Assembly: GCF_000175575.2 (NCBI RefSeq)
Contig: NZ_CP005986.1
Coordinates: forward strand, 2,437,001 to 2,501,000
Direction of reading: 5' to 3'
Length of the DNA stretch: 64,000 nucleotides
Source of the DNA: Acidithiobacillus caldus ATCC 51756
Lineage (GTDB): Bacteria; Pseudomonadota; Gammaproteobacteria; Acidithiobacillales; Acidithiobacillaceae
A program made the position numbers and the translations under genes. The stretch's first letter is position 1, and each line of letters opens with the position of its first letter. Positions 56,558 through 63,675 of the stretch are shown here, piece by piece. The notes beneath the pieces were generated by a model. That model was not told the origin of the DNA and searched no databases. It worked only from the letters and a program-made list of their open reading frames with translations.

Positions 56558-56586
56558 TTAGGCCTTTTTTCCAAACTCGCTATAAT
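56558..56586 (+). promoter_or_regulatory. putative trmB promoter giving a nearly leaderless mRNA
   Basis: A perfect TATAAT at 56581-56586 with a weak -35 (TTAGGC, 56558-56563) 17 bases upstream. Initiation about seven bases downstream would fall at the ATG at 56594. The TATAAT contains a competing ATG at 56585, which would then not be transcribed. Confidence 0.45.
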
Positions 56587-56593
56587 GCCTTGC

Positions 56594-57301
56594 ATGTCCA
56601 TTTCTCTCAAGCCAGATGTCCCGGGGCCCGGGCAGGGTCACCGTCCGCTGCGCAGCTTCGTACTGCGCCAGGGTCGATTTACCAAGGCACAGCGACGCGC
56701 TCTGGCCGAGCTGCTGCCGCGCTGGGCCATCGCGCCGGAGCGGGCCTGGACCTGCCCCTGGGGTGACAAAAGGCCTCTGGCTTTGGAGATCGGTTTCGGC
56801 AATGGCGAGCACCTTGCCCATTTTGCCGCCCAGCATCCCGACTGGGGTTGTATCGGTGCCGAGGTGCACGCCCCCGGCGTGGGCGCCCTGCTCCAGCGTC
56901 TGGAGGCGGGGAGCATCGACAATGTGCGGGTACTCCACGGGGATGCCATGGCCTGGATCGAGACGCTGCCGCCGGCGCTTTTCTCCCTCATCGTCATTCA
57001 GTTCCCCGATCCCTGGCCGAAGAAGCGCCACCACAAGCGCCGTCTGTTACAGGAAGCATCGGCGAAACGCCTGGCAGATCTCCTCGTCCCCGGCGGCGAG
57101 TTGCAGTTTGCGACGGACTGGGAACCCTATGCCCAGCACGCGCTGACCGTGCTCGACACCACCCCATCCCTCGAGAATCTCGCGCCGGGAGGGGGGTTCA
57201 GCCCGCCTCCGGAAAATCGCATTCCGACACGCTTCGAACGTCGGGGAGCGGCGCTGGGGCACCAGGTTTTCGATCTACGCTTTCGCAGGCGCCCAGGCTG
57301 A
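56594..57301 (+). CDS. trmB: tRNA (guanosine(46)-N7)-methyltransferase
   Basis: 235-residue SAM-dependent enzyme. RSFVLRQGRFTKAQ, SAM site LALEIGFGNGEHL and the family motif QFPDPWPKKRHHKRRL are present. The ATG at 56594 is preferred over 56585 because the latter lies in a TATAAT promoter box; neither has a ribosome-binding site. Confidence 0.93.
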   Translation: MSISLKPDVPGPGQGHRPLRSFVLRQGRFTKAQRRALAELLPRWAIAPERAWTCPWGDKRPLALEIGFGNGEHLAHFAAQHPDWGCIGAEVHAPGVGALLQRLEAGSIDNVRVLHGDAMAWIETLPPALFSLIVIQFPDPWPKKRHHKRRLLQEASAKRLADLLVPGGELQFATDWEPYAQHALTVLDTTPSLENLAPGGGFSPPPENRIPTRFERRGAALGHQVFDLRFRRRPG

Positions 57302-57303
57302 GC

Positions 57304-58002
57304 GTGGTGGCCGAGGAAGGGGCAAAAAAGTCCAACTGTCTGCGCTGTGCCATGCGTGCGCGCAGCATATTCGCCGGTTTGAGCGGTGAGGAACTCTGTG
57401 CCTTGGGCATGGACGTGATCGACCTGGAGTTTGTGGGCGGAACCACCATCTATCGGGAAGGCGACAGCGCCAGCCATGCCTATACCTTGCGCGAGGGAGC
57501 CATAAAGCTCGTCAAATCCTTGGCCGATGGTCGTGCCCAGATCGTTCGCCTGCTGCATCACGGTGATCTGTTCGGCTTTGAGGGACTGCACCGGGAGCAA
57601 CACCAGCACACGGCCATCGCCCTGTCGACGGTCAAGCTGTGCCGTCTCGACCTGCGCGAGCTAGACCTCTTGTCCCAGCGCTTGCCGGCCGTGCGCGAGG
57701 CCATCTTTCGCCGCTGGCAGCGCGCACTGGAAGAGGCCGAGAATCGTATCGTCGATCTGGGCACACGCCGGGCCGAGGCGCGGCTGGCTACCTTCCTGCT
57801 GCAATGGGCGCAGGCTTATCCGCAGCGGCGCAGCCTGCCCTTCCCCCTCACCCGCCAGGATCTTGGCGAATTCCTGGGACTAAGCACCGAGCACGTCAGT
57901 CGGATCATGGCGGACTTCAAGCGTCGCAACTGGCTGCGGGAATCCCGGGGCGAACTGGAGATCCTCGACCCGAAGGCCTTGGGCGCAGTCGGCGCGTCCT
58001 GA
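57304..58002 (+). CDS. Crp/Fnr-family transcriptional regulator (FNR-like)
   Basis: 232-residue regulator with a cyclic-nucleotide-like sensor domain and a C-terminal helix-turn-helix. The recognition helix GLSTEHVSRIMADF has the E-x-x-S-R pattern of FNR, which reads TTGAT half-sites. Cys12-x2-Cys15 and Cys113 align in spacing with FNR Cys20, Cys23 and Cys122, but the position of Cys29 is Ser21; Cys32 is another candidate. Start is GTG 57304, three bases after trmB. Oxygen sensing through a cluster is plausible, not proved. Confidence 0.82.
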   Translation: MVAEEGAKKSNCLRCAMRARSIFAGLSGEELCALGMDVIDLEFVGGTTIYREGDSASHAYTLREGAIKLVKSLADGRAQIVRLLHHGDLFGFEGLHREQHQHTAIALSTVKLCRLDLRELDLLSQRLPAVREAIFRRWQRALEEAENRIVDLGTRRAEARLATFLLQWAQAYPQRRSLPFPLTRQDLGEFLGLSTEHVSRIMADFKRRNWLRESRGELEILDPKALGAVGAS

Positions 58003-58041
58003 AGGGGCCGGTTCGGCAATACCCGATAAAATCGATCTACT

Positions 58042-58055
58042 TTGACAAATATCAA
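58042..58055. promoter_or_regulatory. FNR-type operator
   Basis: TTGACAAATATCAA differs from the consensus TTGAT-N4-ATCAA at one base. It lies 95 bases before the persulfide dioxygenase ATG. If it is centred at -41.5, transcription would start near 58090 with a weak -10 TAGTCT at 58078-58083, the arrangement of an FNR-activated class II promoter. Confidence 0.65.
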
Positions 58056-58136
58056 TGCATGGGACCGCCTCGCCGGTTAGTCTGGACGCAAAACGGGTGG
58101 ATTCCGGATACCACTGCGACGAGAGGAGCCGTCATC

Positions 58137-58844
58137 ATGTTTTTCAAGCAGCTTTTTGACACCGAGAGCAGCACCTACACCTACATCCTGGGCGATCTGA
58201 CCTGGCGCGAAGCCGTGGTCATCGACGCCGTCAAGGGGCATAGCGACGCGATTCTGCGCATCCTGCAAGAACACGACCTGACCCTGCGCTACGCTTTGGA
58301 AACCCACGTCCATGCGGACCACGTCAGCGCTGCCGGGGATCTGCGCGCCCTGAGTCGCGCCGAGGTCGTCATCTCTGCCGCCGCGGGAGCCGATTGTGCC
58401 GACCGCAAGGTGGAAGACGGAGATTTCCTGGTCCTCGGAGACGATGTCATCCGCGTACTGGCAACACCCGGCCACACGCCGGGCTGCGTGAGCTATCGCT
58501 GGCACGATCGCGTATTCACGGGCGACGCTCTGCTCATTGGCGGCTGCGGGCGTACCGACTTTCAGGGCGGCGATGCGGGTACCCTTTTTGACAGCATCAC
58601 TCAGAAACTGTTCACCTTGCCCGAAGAGACCTTGGTCTATCCCGGGCACGACTATCACGGGCGCTGGGTCAGTTGTATCGCCGAAGAGAAACGCAGTAAT
58701 CCGCGTCTGGCGGGAAAGTCCAGGGAAGAGTTCATTGCACTCATGGGCTCCCTGGATCTGGCCCAACCCAAACACATCCACGTAGCGGTCCCCGCCAATG
58801 TGCGCTGCGGCCGCGACGACATCGGGAGCAATCCACATGAATGA
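58137..58844 (+). CDS. persulfide dioxygenase (ETHE1-like, metallo-beta-lactamase fold)
   Basis: 235-residue non-heme iron enzyme oxidising glutathione persulfide to sulfite. Signature ETHVHADHVSAAG with His57, His59, Asp61 and His62; iron ligands by analogy with ETHE1 are His57, His113 and Asp130. GGCGRTDFQGGD and YPGHDYHGR are family motifs. GAGAGGAG precedes the ATG at 58137. It overlaps the next gene, and an SQR-like gene follows, so a sulfide/persulfide oxidation unit is likely. Confidence 0.9.
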   Translation: MFFKQLFDTESSTYTYILGDLTWREAVVIDAVKGHSDAILRILQEHDLTLRYALETHVHADHVSAAGDLRALSRAEVVISAAAGADCADRKVEDGDFLVLGDDVIRVLATPGHTPGCVSYRWHDRVFTGDALLIGGCGRTDFQGGDAGTLFDSITQKLFTLPEETLVYPGHDYHGRWVSCIAEEKRSNPRLAGKSREEFIALMGSLDLAQPKHIHVAVPANVRCGRDDIGSNPHE

Positions 58845-59346
58845 ATCCGACGATACCCCCCCATTTCCGGCAGATCGTCGCCGCGGCGGGCGCGGCCTCG
58901 CTCTGGCCACGGGCGGCGAAAAACAGGCGCGGCACCAGCACGATCAGGAGGTTTTCCATCGTCTCTTGGCCCTGCACGCGGAGATCCGGCGGGAGTTGCA
59001 TCGCACCGAGTCGGGCATCCGCAGTCTGACCACTTCGGAAAACCCCGAGGTGGTGGGCTTGCTGCACGACCACGTGCCCAGCATGCATCGGCGTCTGCAG
59101 GAAAACTTTGGTCTGCGTTTTTGGGATCCCGCCTTCGCCGAACTCTTCGCGCAGCACGACAAGGTACAGATGGAGGTCACCCTCCTGCCCAATGGCGTTC
59201 TGGTGGAAGAGTGCAGCGACGACCCCAATGTCGTGCGCCTCATTCAGGCGCACGGCCAGATCGTCAGTCTGTTCTCGGCGCGGGGTTTTGCCCAGGCACA
59301 GGAGGCGAGCCCCCTTCCCGAGGACTATCGACGCGTGCTGGTGTGA
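58837..59346 (+). CDS. hypothetical protein in sulfur-oxidation cluster, 169 aa
   Basis: Soluble protein of unknown family. The N-terminal third is charged and likely disordered; the rest has several conserved-looking His-rich segments: LLHDHVPSMHRRL, FAQHDKVQMEVTLLPNG and LIQAHGQIVSLF, with VEECSDDPNVV between. It overlaps the dioxygenase gene by eight bases and is followed by the SQR-like gene. A metal- or heme-related role is only a guess from the His content. Confidence 0.6.
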   Translation: MNESDDTPPFPADRRRGGRGLALATGGEKQARHQHDQEVFHRLLALHAEIRRELHRTESGIRSLTTSENPEVVGLLHDHVPSMHRRLQENFGLRFWDPAFAELFAQHDKVQMEVTLLPNGVLVEECSDDPNVVRLIQAHGQIVSLFSARGFAQAQEASPLPEDYRRVLV

Positions 59347-59479
59347 GCATCCCTGGCCGCGCCCGCGGCGCATTGCGCGAGCGCGGTATATACTGAGGAA
59401 GCAAGCCTGCGTCATCCGCATTGGATGCTCGGAATCTGCGCATACCGGGCGGAATCCACAGGTCACCGGAGGATGAAAA

Positions 59480-60613
59480 ATGACCAGAATCACCATATTG
59501 GGAGCCGGTTTCGGCGGCCTCACCGCCGTCCGTCACCTGCGCCGGCAGCTGCCGGACGCCGAAATCCATCTGCTCGCCCCGCGCGCGGAATTCGTTTACT
59601 ACCCGAGCCTTATCTGGGTGCCCACGGGCCTGCGCCAGGGGCCTGAACTGCGCGTCGATCTGGACGCATTCTTCCGTCGCAACCGCATCCACTTCCACGC
59701 CGGGCGCGTGACGGCCATCGAGGCGCAGGGACGAAAGGTGCGCAGTGACCAAGGCGAGGAGATCGACAACGATGTTCTGCTCATTGCCACGGGCGGGCGC
59801 TCCCTGCGCAAGCTCCCCGGGATCGAGCATGGCCTCGCCATCTGCGATGGTATCGAGGCAGCGGAACAGATTCGCGACCGCCTGGCCCTTCTGGAGGAAG
59901 GCGATATCGCCTTCGGTTTCGCCGGCAACCCGGCGGAACCCGGCGCGGTTCGCGGTGGACCCATCTTCGAACTGCTCTTTGGTATCGATACCTGGCTGCG
60001 CCGACGCGGTCGGCGTGACGCCATCCGCCTGCATTTCTTCAATCCCATGCGCGAGCCCGGTAATCGGCTGGGTTCGGCAGCGGTATCTGGCCTTTTGGCG
60101 GAGATGGAAAGGCGTGGGATTCACACCCATCTGGGCCACAAAATCCTTTCCTTCGACGCCCAAAAGGTAGAGACGGAGGGCGGCACCATTCCCGCCAACC
60201 TCATCCTCTTCATGCCGGGAATGACGGGACCAGAATTTGCCCTGCCCAGTGGCCTGCCCCTGTCTCCCGGCGGTTTTATCCAGGCCGATGGCCACTGTGC
60301 GGTGGTGGGCTTTCCCGGAGTCTATGTCGTGGGCGATGCCGGTGCCTACGAGGGCAGCCCGGACTGGTTACCCAAGCAGGGCCATGCTGCCGACCTGCAG
60401 GCGGAAACGGCGGCGCACAACATCGTCCGGTACCTGCGCGGCGAGGCGCCGGACAAGCGCTTCAAAAATGAACTGGTGTGTATCGTCGATGGCATCGACA
60501 ACGCCTTCATGGTCTACCGTAGCCCGGAGCAGGCGCGGGTCATCCCGAGCCCCCTGTGGCACCTCGCCAAACGCGCCTTCGAGTGGCGTTACCTTTTGCA
60601 CTACCGCGGCTAG
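59480..60613 (+). CDS. SQR-like FAD-dependent oxidoreductase
   Basis: 377-residue flavoprotein of the sulfide:quinone oxidoreductase/flavocytochrome c family. N-terminal FAD fold ITILGAGFGGLTAVRHLRR, second nucleotide motif LLIATGG, and VYVVGDAGAY. Cys122 and Cys334 resemble two of the three redox cysteines of SQR; the third, Cys160 in the characterised enzyme, is absent (the segment reads RGGPIFELLFGID). The C terminus (LAKRAFEWRYLLHYRG) is amphipathic, fitting membrane attachment. GGAGG precedes the ATG; a TATACT at 59389 may be a -10. Confidence 0.8.
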   Translation: MTRITILGAGFGGLTAVRHLRRQLPDAEIHLLAPRAEFVYYPSLIWVPTGLRQGPELRVDLDAFFRRNRIHFHAGRVTAIEAQGRKVRSDQGEEIDNDVLLIATGGRSLRKLPGIEHGLAICDGIEAAEQIRDRLALLEEGDIAFGFAGNPAEPGAVRGGPIFELLFGIDTWLRRRGRRDAIRLHFFNPMREPGNRLGSAAVSGLLAEMERRGIHTHLGHKILSFDAQKVETEGGTIPANLILFMPGMTGPEFALPSGLPLSPGGFIQADGHCAVVGFPGVYVVGDAGAYEGSPDWLPKQGHAADLQAETAAHNIVRYLRGEAPDKRFKNELVCIVDGIDNAFMVYRSPEQARVIPSPLWHLAKRAFEWRYLLHYRG

Positions 60614-60682
60614 TCTGGGGCATCGGCCATTCTTCGTCGGAGGTGATCCGAGCTGGGCTCTTGGCGCACCGAGGTCGAGCTG

Positions 60683-61864
60683 TCAGGAGTAGTGCCGCCC
60701 CTTCCAGGCGCCGCCCCTTCCCAGGTAATGGCGGCGTCCGGAGTCGACGGTCATGAGGGTATACAGCCAGGCGGCGGGAAAGAGGCTGGCACCCCACCAC
60801 CAGGGTAAGGAGTAGAAACGCAGCATCGGCACATACATGCGCCAGGCGAGCAGAAGGGCCACGGCGGCGGGTAGCCACAACCACCAGACCTGCGTGAGTA
60901 CTCCGTAGAGCAGGGCCAGAAGCGGCCAGAGATAGAGGAGGGTCATCCCCGTCACTGCCAGCAGTAGGCGGCTGGGCTTCTGCTCCAACTGCACATAGGC
61001 CGAGCGGGCGACCATGGACCAGATCTCGTCGAGCCGTGGATAAGCGCGCAGGCTGCGGCTGTCGTGGGTGAGGCCAAGCCAGATGGCTCCCATGGGCTTC
61101 AGCAGGCCCGCCAGGGTGCAATCGTCGATGAGGGCAGCGCGCATGCGCGCGAGGCCTCCGGCACGCTCCAGGGCGTCGCGGCACAGCAGCATGCAACCAC
61201 CGGCTGCACCGGCGAGGCGGTGTCGCGCGTCATTGACCCAGGCAAAGGGATAGAGTTTCTGGAAAAAGAAAACGAAGGCCGGGATCAGAAGGCGCTCCCA
61301 AAAGCTCTGGCAGGACAGCTCCACCATCAGCGAGACCAATACCCGCTGCTCCCCTTCGGCCTTGGCCACCAGACGGCGGAGCACCGTCTCTCCGTGCTGG
61401 ATGTCGGCATCCGTAAACCAGAGCCAGGGCACATCACCCGCTGCCGCCACTCCTTGGGACTGAGCCCAGACCTTGCCCGCCCAGCCCGGTGGTAGATCCT
61501 GACCGCGCAGCACCTGCAGGCGGTGGCTGGCCCCTACGGCTGCCGCCGCCTGTCGCGCCAGTGCGGCGGTGTCGTCGCTACTCTGATCGTCCACCACGAT
61601 CAGGTGCAGACTGCCGGGGTAGTCTTGGCTCAGGATGCTGCGGACGCAGGGACCGATACCCGCGGCCTCGTTGCGTGCGGGGACCACCGCCACCACCGCT
61701 GGCCACTGGGGGGGTGGCGCGATCACCGCCGCCAGACGCTCGCTGCAACGCCAGAAGTGCCCCCGGCCAAAATAGAGCACGAGCCAGGCGAGGAGCACCG
61801 CCCAGGTCAGGAGGCCAAGTAACCGGAGCACAATGGGATCGGCTATCAGCTCTGGATACGCCAC
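60683..61864 (-). CDS. hpnB: hopanoid biosynthesis-associated glycosyltransferase HpnB
   Basis: 393-residue family 2 glycosyltransferase with an N-terminal membrane helix and three C-terminal helices. PAVVAVVPARNEAAGIG, VVDDQSSDDT, LWFTDADIQH and the membrane stretch LLIPAFVFFFQKLYPF match HpnB, associated with hopanoid (C35) modification. No other hpn gene is in the window. GTG at 61864 is the suggested start; the frame is open to 61918, deeper inside pilU. Confidence 0.82.
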   Translation of the reverse strand: MAYPELIADPIVLRLLGLLTWAVLLAWLVLYFGRGHFWRCSERLAAVIAPPPQWPAVVAVVPARNEAAGIGPCVRSILSQDYPGSLHLIVVDDQSSDDTAALARQAAAAVGASHRLQVLRGQDLPPGWAGKVWAQSQGVAAAGDVPWLWFTDADIQHGETVLRRLVAKAEGEQRVLVSLMVELSCQSFWERLLIPAFVFFFQKLYPFAWVNDARHRLAGAAGGCMLLCRDALERAGGLARMRAALIDDCTLAGLLKPMGAIWLGLTHDSRSLRAYPRLDEIWSMVARSAYVQLEQKPSRLLLAVTGMTLLYLWPLLALLYGVLTQVWWLWLPAAVALLLAWRMYVPMLRFYSLPWWWGASLFPAAWLYTLMTVDSGRRHYLGRGGAWKGRHYS

Positions 61865-62617
61865 TGCCGTTCGCCATCGCTCTGCGCGCCGGGATCCTCG
61901 AGGCCACGACGCAGGCATTCCATCTTGATGGCAAGGCGCAGGTCATTCTGCGAGTCCGCCCCGCGCAGAGCGTCCTCATAATGGATCAGACCGTCCATGT
62001 AGAGCTTCAGGAGGGACTGGTCAAAGGTCTGCATGCCGACATCGTTGGTGCGTGCCATGGCGTCCTTGAGCAGGCCTACCTCGCCCTTGTAGATCAGATC
62101 GGCGTTGGTAATTCTTATGCAGGAACTCGATGGGGTCCTCGATGGTGAGGATGTGCCCGGGGGAGTTCTGGTTACGATACTGGATCATGGACGCAAGGGA
62201 GGTACTCTTGCCCGAACCGGTTGCCCCCACGAAAAGCACCAGTCCCCGCGCCGACATAGCGAGACTCTTGAGCACGTCGGGCATCTTCAGCTGCTCAAGG
62301 GTGGGGATGTCGGTCTTGATGGCGCGCAGCACGAAACCCAGCTCGCCACGCTGGAAGAAGCCATTGACGCGAAAACGGCCGATACCACTGGCCGAGATCG
62401 CCATGTTGACCTCCTTTTCCTGCTGGAACTCCTGCAGACGCTCCAGACCCAGGATCTCCTTGGCCAGGGCCAAGGTTTGGCCGGGCCGCAGGGCCTCCTG
62501 ACCGATGGGAACCGCGCGACCGTCGATCTTCAGGGTGGGTGGAGCACCGACGGTGAGATACAGGTCCGAGGCGTTCTTCTGCACCATCAATTGCAGCAAC
62601 TGTTCGAGGGCGGCCAT
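61846..62617 (-). pseudogene. pilU: type IV pilus ATPase PilU with internal deletion
   Basis: The N-terminal part (62617 to about 62114) reads normally: MAALEQLLQLMVQKNASDLYL-like start, ATP loop FVGATGSGKSTS and TIEDPIEFLHK. Then the frame changes and the sequence continues at ITNADLIYKGEVGLLKDAMA and GMQTFDQSLLKLYMDGLIHYEDAL up to 61846. About 145 residues are missing between them, including the Asp box, Walker B and His box. The surviving first frame ends at 62021 as a 198-residue fragment. The neighbouring pilT is intact. Confidence 0.82.
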
Positions 62618-62625
62618 CCTGCACC

Positions 62626-63675
62626 TCAGGCGACGGCAGCGAAGCTGTCTTTGTTCTGCACCCGCCGAAGCGCCTCCTCGCGGGTGATACGGTGGGCGCG
62701 GACGAGGTCCGCAAGACACTGATCCAGGGTCTGCATGCCCTGATTCTGACCGGTTTGAATCACCGAGTACATCTGCGCAATCTTGTTTTCGCGGATGAGG
62801 TTGCGGATGGCCGGGTTGGCAATCATGATTTCGTGGGCGGCCACTCGGCCCTTGCCATCCGCCGTTTTGAGGAGGGTCTGGGAGATGACCGCGCGCAGGG
62901 ACTCCGACAGCATGGCCCGCACCATGTCCTTCTCGCCGCCGGGGAAGGAGTCGACGATACGATCGATGGTTTTCGGCGCCGAGCTCGTGTGCAGGGTCGC
63001 GAAGACGACGTGGCCGGTTTCCGCAGCGGTAAGGGCCAGGCGCATGGTCTCCAGATCGCGCAACTCGCCCACGAGAATGACGTCCGGATCCTCACGCAGG
63101 GCCGAGCGCAGGGCATTGGCAAAGGAGTGGGTATGTGGCCCCACCTCGCGCTGGTTGATGAGGCATTTTTTGGGGGTGTGGAGGAATTCGATGGGATCCT
63201 CGATGGTGATGATGTGGTCGGCACGCTGCTGGTTGATGTGATCGACCATGGCGGCCAGGGTCGTGGATTTGCCCGATCCCGTGGGCCCCGTCACCAGGAC
63301 CAGACCGCGTGGAACGTTGATGATATCCTTGAAGACCTTGGGCGCATTCAGATCCTCGAGGCTCAGCACCTTGGCGGGAATGGTGCGGAAGGCCGCCGCC
63401 GGCCCACGGTCCTGATTGAAGGCATTGACACGGAAGCGCGCCACCCCGGCCAGATCGATGGCGAAGTCGATCTCGAGATTTTCTTCAAACCATTTGCGCT
63501 GGGCATCGTTCATGATGTCGTAGATCATGGCGTGTACCGTCTTGGCGTCCAGGGGCTCGACATTGAGATGGCGGATGTCGCCATGGATGCGCAACATGGG
63601 CGGCAAGCCGGCGGACATGTGGGTGTCGGAGGCATTGTTCTTGACGGCAAAAGTCAGCAGTTCGGTGATATCCAC
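62626..63675 (-). CDS. pilT: type IV pilus twitching motility ATPase PilT
   Basis: 349-residue hexameric retraction ATPase. SDTHMSAGLPPMLRIHGD N domain, Walker A GPTGSGKST, Asp box TIEDPIEFLH, Walker B DPDVILVGELRD, His box TGHVVFATLHTSSA and C-terminal GMQTLDQCLADL are all intact. It lies eight bases before pilU. It gives the undeleted comparison for that gene. Confidence 0.96.
   Translation of the reverse strand: MDITELLTFAVKNNASDTHMSAGLPPMLRIHGDIRHLNVEPLDAKTVHAMIYDIMNDAQRKWFEENLEIDFAIDLAGVARFRVNAFNQDRGPAAAFRTIPAKVLSLEDLNAPKVFKDIINVPRGLVLVTGPTGSGKSTTLAAMVDHINQQRADHIITIEDPIEFLHTPKKCLINQREVGPHTHSFANALRSALREDPDVILVGELRDLETMRLALTAAETGHVVFATLHTSSAPKTIDRIVDSFPGGEKDMVRAMLSESLRAVISQTLLKTADGKGRVAAHEIMIANPAIRNLIRENKIAQMYSVIQTGQNQGMQTLDQCLADLVRAHRITREEALRRVQNKDSFAAVA

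Follow-up and report, generated by a model that had tools for sequence, protein, structure and literature searches.

The analysed window is a 64,000-nt stretch of the Acidithiobacillus caldus ATCC 51756 genome (contig NZ_CP005986.1, positions 2,437,001 to 2,501,000; G000:C1:2437001-2501000, where G000 is this genome, 2.99 Mb in four contigs). The ORF list and a coordinate check showed four consecutive genes on the + strand of the window, with an FNR box between the first two. A gene for an FNR-like regulator (fnr; 232 aa, 57304-58002) is followed by the box TTGACAAATATCAA (58042-58055), by pdo for an ETHE1-type persulfide dioxygenase (235 aa, 58137-58844), by a gene here called unk (169 aa, 58837-59346), and by a gene for a flavoprotein (377 aa, 59480-60613) resembling sulfide:quinone oxidoreductase (SQR). 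unk overlaps pdo by 8 nt, and 133 nt separate unk from the SQR-like gene. An initial annotation of this DNA had described a regulator, a near-consensus box, pdo, unk, and an SQR-like gene in a row, and all of these parts were found where it had placed them. It had also put the recognition motif EHVSR 40 bases before the box; the motif is there (57889-57903), the distance is 138 nt, and it is the stop codon of fnr that lies 39 nt before the box.

The regulator combines a cNMP-type sensor domain with a Crp helix-turn-helix (Pfam cNMP_binding, 3.6e-17, and HTH_Crp_2, 4.9e-19), which is the domain architecture of the Crp/Fnr family, and in the Protein Data Bank (PDB) its best relatives, at 4.6e-24, have the chain name FNR type regulator. 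In the alignment, ETISR of FNR stands opposite EHVSR, of which E, V, S, and R do not vary among the 16 aligned sequences; the protein thus carries E..SR, the recognition motif for TTGAT half-sites. In the alignment of 14 orthologs and two outgroups (A2, which leaves out L036, L040, L044, and L048), Cys12, Cys15, and Cys113 are invariant and correspond to Cys20, Cys23, and Cys122 of E. coli FNR as numbered in PMC6659574. The place of Cys29 is taken by Ser21, so that three of the four canonical cysteines (20, 23, 29, and 122) are kept; Ser occupies this place in 14 of 14 Acidithiobacillaceae orthologs and Cys in both neighbouring-family outgroups. Cys32 is unlikely to be the fourth ligand, as it is absent from three of the 14 orthologs (L043, L046, and L047). 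The residue numbered Cys40 in A. ferrooxidans FNR was likewise not favoured as a ligand (PMC6659574; statements on this paper, PMC12016491, PMC7984328, PMC5093147, PMC7315123, and PMC5584763 refer to excerpts). Against the NCBIfam Fnr model, the protein reached 100.8 bits, below the cut-off of 228. Judged from its aligned residues, the regulator is a non-canonical FNR with three of the four cluster cysteines.

Taken alone, the box is weak evidence and could be due to chance. The window holds 16 matches with at most two mismatches against 10.6 expected, a count reached by 7 of 100 shuffles; with at most one mismatch, about 0.75 matches per window were estimated by scaling, and TTGACAAATATCAA is the sole one at that level. 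Conservation across relatives makes the box a footprint. Among 31 genomes of the order searched for an fnr ortholog and the box, 18 encode the ortholog (62–100% identity, near full length) and G012 has a partial gene at a contig end. The extended pattern TTGAYN5TCAATGC stands directly behind fnr in 18 of these 19 genomes, the partial gene included, and the degenerate box TTGATTTTTCGCAATGC does so in the remaining one, G028 (L047). This recurrence directly behind fnr marks the box as more than a chance match. The initial annotation had staked its reading on the box being kept in close relatives, and it is kept in all 19 genomes with the ortholog.

The footprint was delimited with 10 representatives, picked by group, and is numbered from the start predicted below. 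All 10 share TTGA, T at −40, CAATGC at −37 to −32, T at −54, C at −53, and A at −64, and nine of them keep T at −38, A at −11, and T at −7; the stretches from −31 to −12 and after +1 are mostly unconserved. The footprint includes an invariant TGC directly after the box (58056-58058) and, by column conservation, an upstream element TC..TC.A (58032-58039, about −58 to −51, 3–10 nt upstream of the box) with its invariant T at −54 and C at −53. The outgroups L049 and L050, which have neither unk nor a box of fewer than two mismatches behind the gene, were left out of the footprint, L060 was left out of the 19-row table since the pattern missed its box, and alignment A1 leaves out L036, L040, and L044. 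About one such box per 64 kb would be expected by scaling, which is what a functionless chance match would need, but the box, TGC, and −10 spacing are conserved amid mostly unconserved flanks in three genera, and we regard such a match as extremely improbable.

With a hand-entered sigma-70 −10 matrix, the mean score peaked 22 nt after the box, and 18 of 19 rows scored above 1 there. The observed maximum was reached by none of 5000 within-row shuffles of the 10 representatives, a result that ignores the relatedness of the rows and is hence not a probability. The hexamers at 22 nt differ between groups (TAGTCT, TAGGCT, TATGGT, CAAGAT, GACAAT, GATACT, and CAAACT). In the window, TAGTCT lies at 58078-58083, from which transcription is predicted to start at 58090, with the box centred at −41.5; the start agrees with the one near 58090 given in the initial annotation. 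FNR activates class II promoters from −41.5. The region 17 bp before the −10 hexamer would be a degenerate −35 region (ATGCAT, 58055-58060), and we infer that the TG at −34/−33, invariant in the 10 representatives, is the TG of this −35 hexamer. Site centre, −10, and weak −35 together give the predicted layout of a class II FNR promoter. No consensus sigma-70 promoter was found in 57200-60800, where 0.4 were expected, so that this has little weight either way; the two terminator-like matches there (2.5 expected) carry little weight as well.

The overlap of the box with the −35 region would also allow the same protein to repress the operon in the absence of oxygen by occluding that region, and repression would fit an oxygen-dependent dioxygenase that is useless without oxygen. 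We consider this quite unlikely, as the centre at −41.5, the fixed 22 nt to the −10, and the vestigial −35 are the layout of activated promoters. Moreover, sdo12 was listed as higher, not lower, under anaerobic conditions (PMC12016491).

Across the 31 genomes, TTGAYN5TCAATGC occurs at 54 sites, of which 18 are behind fnr, one belongs to a decayed duplicate, and 35 are elsewhere; a reversed-pattern control gave one site and was judged unfair owing to sequence bias. Thirteen of the 35 (12 regions) were inspected, and nine lie inside long ORFs while four are ambiguous. From these 13 sites, a broad regulon with the same extended box was rejected. The sole further site in the A. caldus genome is inside an RND-type ORF, and the shorter pattern TTGAYN4RTCAA occurs at 12 places in this genome (control, 1). 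The duplicate, in G016 (L126), has a second box with GATACT at 22 nt before a pdo copy with an early in-frame stop and a truncated unk; these defects led us to reject it as a relocated functional copy and not to count it as support.

Two of the 12 places of the shorter pattern, at G000:C1:1295156-1295169 and 1773964-1773977 (L087 and L091), have identical sequence around TTGACACAGATCAA. Each precedes a globin gene and a ferredoxin-type ORF and falls within, or immediately ahead of, the 5′ end of a divergently oriented Crp/Fnr regulator ORF; this is a duplicated globin locus with an FNR-type palindrome. TTGACCCGCGTCAA lies at G000:C1:1298360-1298373 (L088), about 60 nt before an ORF that by eye looks hemerythrin-type.

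The gene that stays constant next to fnr is unk. Of 17 relatives, 17 have unk beside fnr, 11 the SQR-like gene, and nine pdo; the pdo counts cover the place beside fnr. At L046, a pdo remnant lies between the box and unk, both of which are retained. A strong copy of unk (E < 1e-60) is encoded by 19 of the 31 genomes, exactly those with an fnr ortholog (the partial one included), and by none of the 12 without fnr, some of which are incomplete (G019, 71%; G024, 61%; G013, 85%). Weaker unk-like paralogs (E 1e-15 to 1e-26) are present in G019 and G020. SQR-like homologs are more widespread (24 of 31 genomes), including all 19 genomes with fnr, though not always adjoining it, and five without. Going by these neighbourhoods, unk is the fixed partner of fnr and the box, and pdo and sqr come and go there. 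The unit of regulator and sulfur genes proposed in the initial annotation is thus borne out in its conserved site with a fixed −10, and not in pdo and sqr as constant parts (9 and 11 of 17).

The same co-occurrence bears on which protein binds the box. The A. caldus genome holds at least three kinds of Crp/Fnr-type protein, and the binder could be one other than the adjacent gene product, either the globin-side protein or a cydA-side paralog that has a similar cysteine pattern, EHLSR, and a degenerate box in its upstream region. This is improbable in our judgement, because all 19 genomes with an adjacent fnr ortholog, and none of the 12 without it, encode the strong unk copy, and second box matches were found in only eight places of seven genomes. 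The cydA-side paralog is encoded at G000:C1:1358706-1359332 (L002 and L030), divergent from a gene that we take to be cydA-like, with TTGATAATTCGCAATGC between them. At L058, L059, and L064, an fnr-unk pair lies near presumed cydA-like genes.

The product of pdo matches PDB 9rhq over 235 of 235 residues with two differences and the ETHE1 chain 4chl at 3.4e-65, and this full-length match to solved members places it among ETHE1-type persulfide dioxygenases, which are O2-dependent. The SQR-like protein belongs to Pyr_redox_2 (Pfam, 2.6e-19) and has SQR among its nearest solved relatives (PDB 3h8i, 1.2e-24, and 3t2y, 5.9e-24, the latter presumably the A. ferrooxidans SQR). The positions of Cys128 and Cys160 in 3t2y agree with the A. 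ferrooxidans SQR numbering in PMC6335251, from which the roles of Cys160 and Cys356 were taken. The place of Cys356 is kept (Cys334), and that of Cys160 is Arg158. None of 11 SQR-like orthologs has a cysteine at the Cys160 place, and Cys122 and Cys334 are kept in all 11 (L048 was left out of the count owing to an assembly gap and L068 was added); the second SQR of the A. caldus genome (L140) does have a cysteine there. By alignment, the protein is a non-canonical SQR-like flavoprotein without Cys160. The FNR-type and SQR-like assignments of the initial annotation are revised in that neither protein is canonical, one cluster cysteine and Cys160, respectively, being missing.

For unk, no family was retrieved at E ≤ 0.1 in Pfam, NCBIfam, or PHROGs, and a PDB match to Ika8 (E 5e-5, with no single stretch passing by itself) was discounted as meaningless. 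Relatives were found at 33 loci of the genome collection, including Thioclava and other Rhodobacteraceae, Sulfoacidibacillus, Acidihalobacter, and Verrucomicrobia, and in 10 of 369 genomes drawn from the class, with the A. caldus genome and its congener included. Across 25 unk sequences, His41, Leu43, Arg52, Gly60, His79, Met83, Arg86, Arg94, WDPAF, Glu102, Gly120, His139, Phe146, and Gly150 are invariant, and His47 and Thr65 are nearly so. The two halves of the protein are alike (score 53, reached by none of 2000 shuffles). In 20 of the 25 members, none of 300 shuffles reached the score of the half-likeness, and 1–17 did in the other five. His79 and His139 stand at equivalent places of the two repeats, and the invariant His and Met suggest a metal or haem site. 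The core model from AlphaFold2 (pLDDT 93.8, pTM 0.86) had no clear solved relative. Foldseek gave a best E of 0.1 and VIA-align a best Z of 5.6 (rmsd 3.2, 76 aligned) to a KEOPS complex chain, which was not accepted as homology; a fold search that returns no family does not establish a new fold.

The contexts of unk relatives are varied. Neighbours include a metallo-beta-lactamase/rhodanese protein and a sulfur transporter (L082), a thioredoxin (L158), a thioredoxin-like DUF255 protein (L077), and a glutaredoxin nearby (L157); no clear sulfur genes were seen in the Rhodobacteraceae contexts inspected by eye. An unk-like paralog in the A. caldus genome (G000:C1:1740433-1740780; L152 and L161) lies beside an RND pump and a Trns_repr_metal repressor. 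By eye, the Verrucomicrobia homologs (L077, L080, and others) seem to begin with signal peptides, so that some lineages may use the family outside the cytoplasm.

We consider it probable that the FNR-like protein activates a persulfide-handling operon at low oxygen from a class II position. The regulator would bind the box that immediately follows its own gene and, acting from −41.5, bring RNA polymerase to a promoter whose −10 is present and whose −35 is vestigial; pdo, unk, and sqr would be switched on together from this promoter when oxygen is low. The signal would be oxygen, sensed through an Fe-S cluster with three cysteines and one further residue as ligands. The SQR-like protein would make sulfane sulfur, PDO would oxidise glutathione persulfide (GSSH) while traces of O2 remain, unk would serve as a metal- or haem-binding accessory, and the operon would handle sulfide and glutathione persulfide during micro-oxic or anoxic sulfur growth. 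Control of the unit by oxygen, as proposed in the initial annotation, is in this sense predicted from sequence. Overexpression of AFE_0267, from which SQR activity was claimed, benefited A. ferrooxidans under anaerobic conditions alone, and the genes listed as higher in the wild type under those conditions include sdo12 (PMC12016491), which fits low-oxygen activation. Three genomes of the same class contain pdo-unk-sqr without fnr beside it; in one of them (L155), ATGACTTTAATCAATGC stands upstream of pdo (two mismatches, TGC kept) with TATTTT 22 nt later, which supports activation from this position. Weak support comes from A. caldus, where deletion of rsrR raised sdo-2 and A5904_0789, by tag order the neighbouring regulator, and also many other genes (PMC5093147).

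Several observations weigh against low-oxygen activation, in addition to the hand-entered matrix and the related rows behind the −10 test. In the other two of the three genomes without adjacent fnr (L153 and L154), the roughly 250 nt upstream of pdo contain no box of fewer than three mismatches. A metagenome-assembled genome labelled Sulfuriferula (L060) has fnr-pdo-unk-sqr, with sqr matched over residues 1–135 only, and a weaker box, TTAACAAATGTCAATGC, that the pattern missed and whose best −10 is one base off; at L047, the box is degenerate and the hexamer at 22 nt is poor. The A. caldus genome encodes at least two further Crp/Fnr proteins. The excerpts of PMC12016491 do not count sqr with the genes that are higher under anaerobic conditions, and AfeI/R also acts on sdo and sqr, a lux-box having been claimed at AFE_0269 (PMC7984328). 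This influence and that of RsrR (PMC5093147) also speak against the small self-contained system that the initial annotation saw here. Finally, a dioxygenase that requires O2 is an odd target for an activator working without it. For the A. ferrooxidans ortholog (AFE_0270), about 4.5 Fe per monomer, a cluster decaying slowly in air (complete by 210 min), and activation of PnarG in E. coli at about 70% of the activity of E. coli FNR were reported (PMC6659574). The slow decay makes the pairing less puzzling, as the regulator could be active at traces of O2; alternatively, unk and the SQR-like protein may be the main outputs.

The same data bear on the nature of the signal. In Acinetobacter, pdo operons are controlled by BigR and FisR, which respond to (per)sulfide (PMC7315123), and by this precedent the regulator here could mainly sense sulfane sulfur or sulfide through its cysteines, with oxygen secondary; Cys12, Cys15, and Cys113 are invariant, and with FNR Cys29 lost the cluster site is unusual. 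We hold this to be rather unlikely, given that each monomer of the A. ferrooxidans ortholog contains Fe close to the amount of one [4Fe-4S] cluster and that the protein is functional at an FNR promoter (PMC6659574).

A different division of the locus is possible, and we propose it tentatively. The real module may be fnr, box, and unk, with pdo and sqr as cargo: an oxygen-tolerant activator with three Cys and one Ser would read the balance of O2 and sulfane sulfur and drive foremost unk, a new duplicated His/Met metal- or haem-binding family in persulfide or metal-sulfur chemistry. This is suggested by the co-occurrence of fnr and strong unk copies, by the box and unk outlasting an absent or decayed pdo, and by the invariant His41, His79, Met83, and His139 and the paralog beside the RND pump and metal repressor. 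Outside Acidithiobacillaceae, however, unk travels with pdo-sqr without fnr (L153-L155), so that it may be linked to those two genes and not to the regulator, and an SQR-like gene is still encoded somewhere in all 19 genomes with fnr.

Upstream of fnr on the + strand lies an ORF (56585-57301) that we take from its sequence to be trmB-like, for a tRNA methyltransferase. The GTG start of fnr is 2 nt behind its stop, and given this gap the two may share a transcript; homologs of the ORF adjoin fnr in 11 of 17 relatives. Farther along (62021-63675, − strand) are two adjacent PilT-type ATPase ORFs, of which the 232-aa one seems by eye to be cut short after EDPIEFLHKN. No plasmid copy of the locus was matched in the plasmid collection, from which records of this or very near genomes may be left out.

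Switching between oxic and anoxic sulfur metabolism in acidophilic sulfur oxidisers is poorly known. The locus would set a regulator of the low-oxygen type over an oxygen-using enzyme, with an uncharacterised family as its most constant neighbour. No native target of A. ferrooxidans FNR is put forward in the excerpts of PMC6659574, and the conserved site is a directly testable one.

Like class II FNR promoters of E. coli, the locus has a predicted centre at −41.5, a −10, and a weak −35, with the start predicted here from sequence; unlike them, it has different target genes and, immediately behind the box, an invariant TGC. pdo/sqr operons under FisR or BigR likewise have a regulator beside the genes for a persulfide dioxygenase and SQR, and SqrR and CstR are further local (per)sulfide sensors of such operons. 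The regulator here is of the Crp/Fnr type, whereas those sensors are sigma-54 activators or thiol-switch repressors, and unk lies in between here.

The regulator is an ortholog of A. ferrooxidans FNR (AFE_0270, FNR-AF; 69% identity over 220 aa), provided that G007 (L005/L033) belongs to that species, and the two share the three cysteines, Ser at the Cys29 place, and a box behind the gene. PMC6659574 reports no FNR-type site upstream of the AFE_0270 gene. The published reverse cloning primer ends in the complement of TTGATAATTGTCAATGCAGAC, with exact matches in L005, L006, L033, and L034; as it runs over the box, the clone included the box. The text of PMC6659574 contains none of the words dioxygenase, intergenic, and downstream and is therefore presumably silent on a site behind the gene and on sdo as a target. 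By gene order and sequence, the sdo2 and sqr-like locus of A. caldus (A5904_0790 / A5904_0792) is the same locus as ours; the sqr-like neighbour was noted, regulators were said to be common near sdo genes, and the words Fnr and Crp and the tag A5904_0791 do not occur in the paper (PMC5584763). FNR, SQR, and related terms are absent from PMC8790237. In the open-access literature searched, which leaves most subscription journals outside its scope, no link between fnr and sdo was found, and AFE_0268 had no occurrence. The regulator ortholog, pdo, and the SQR-like gene were known one by one; neither the conserved class II-type site that would join them nor unk as the constant partner was found in the literature searched.

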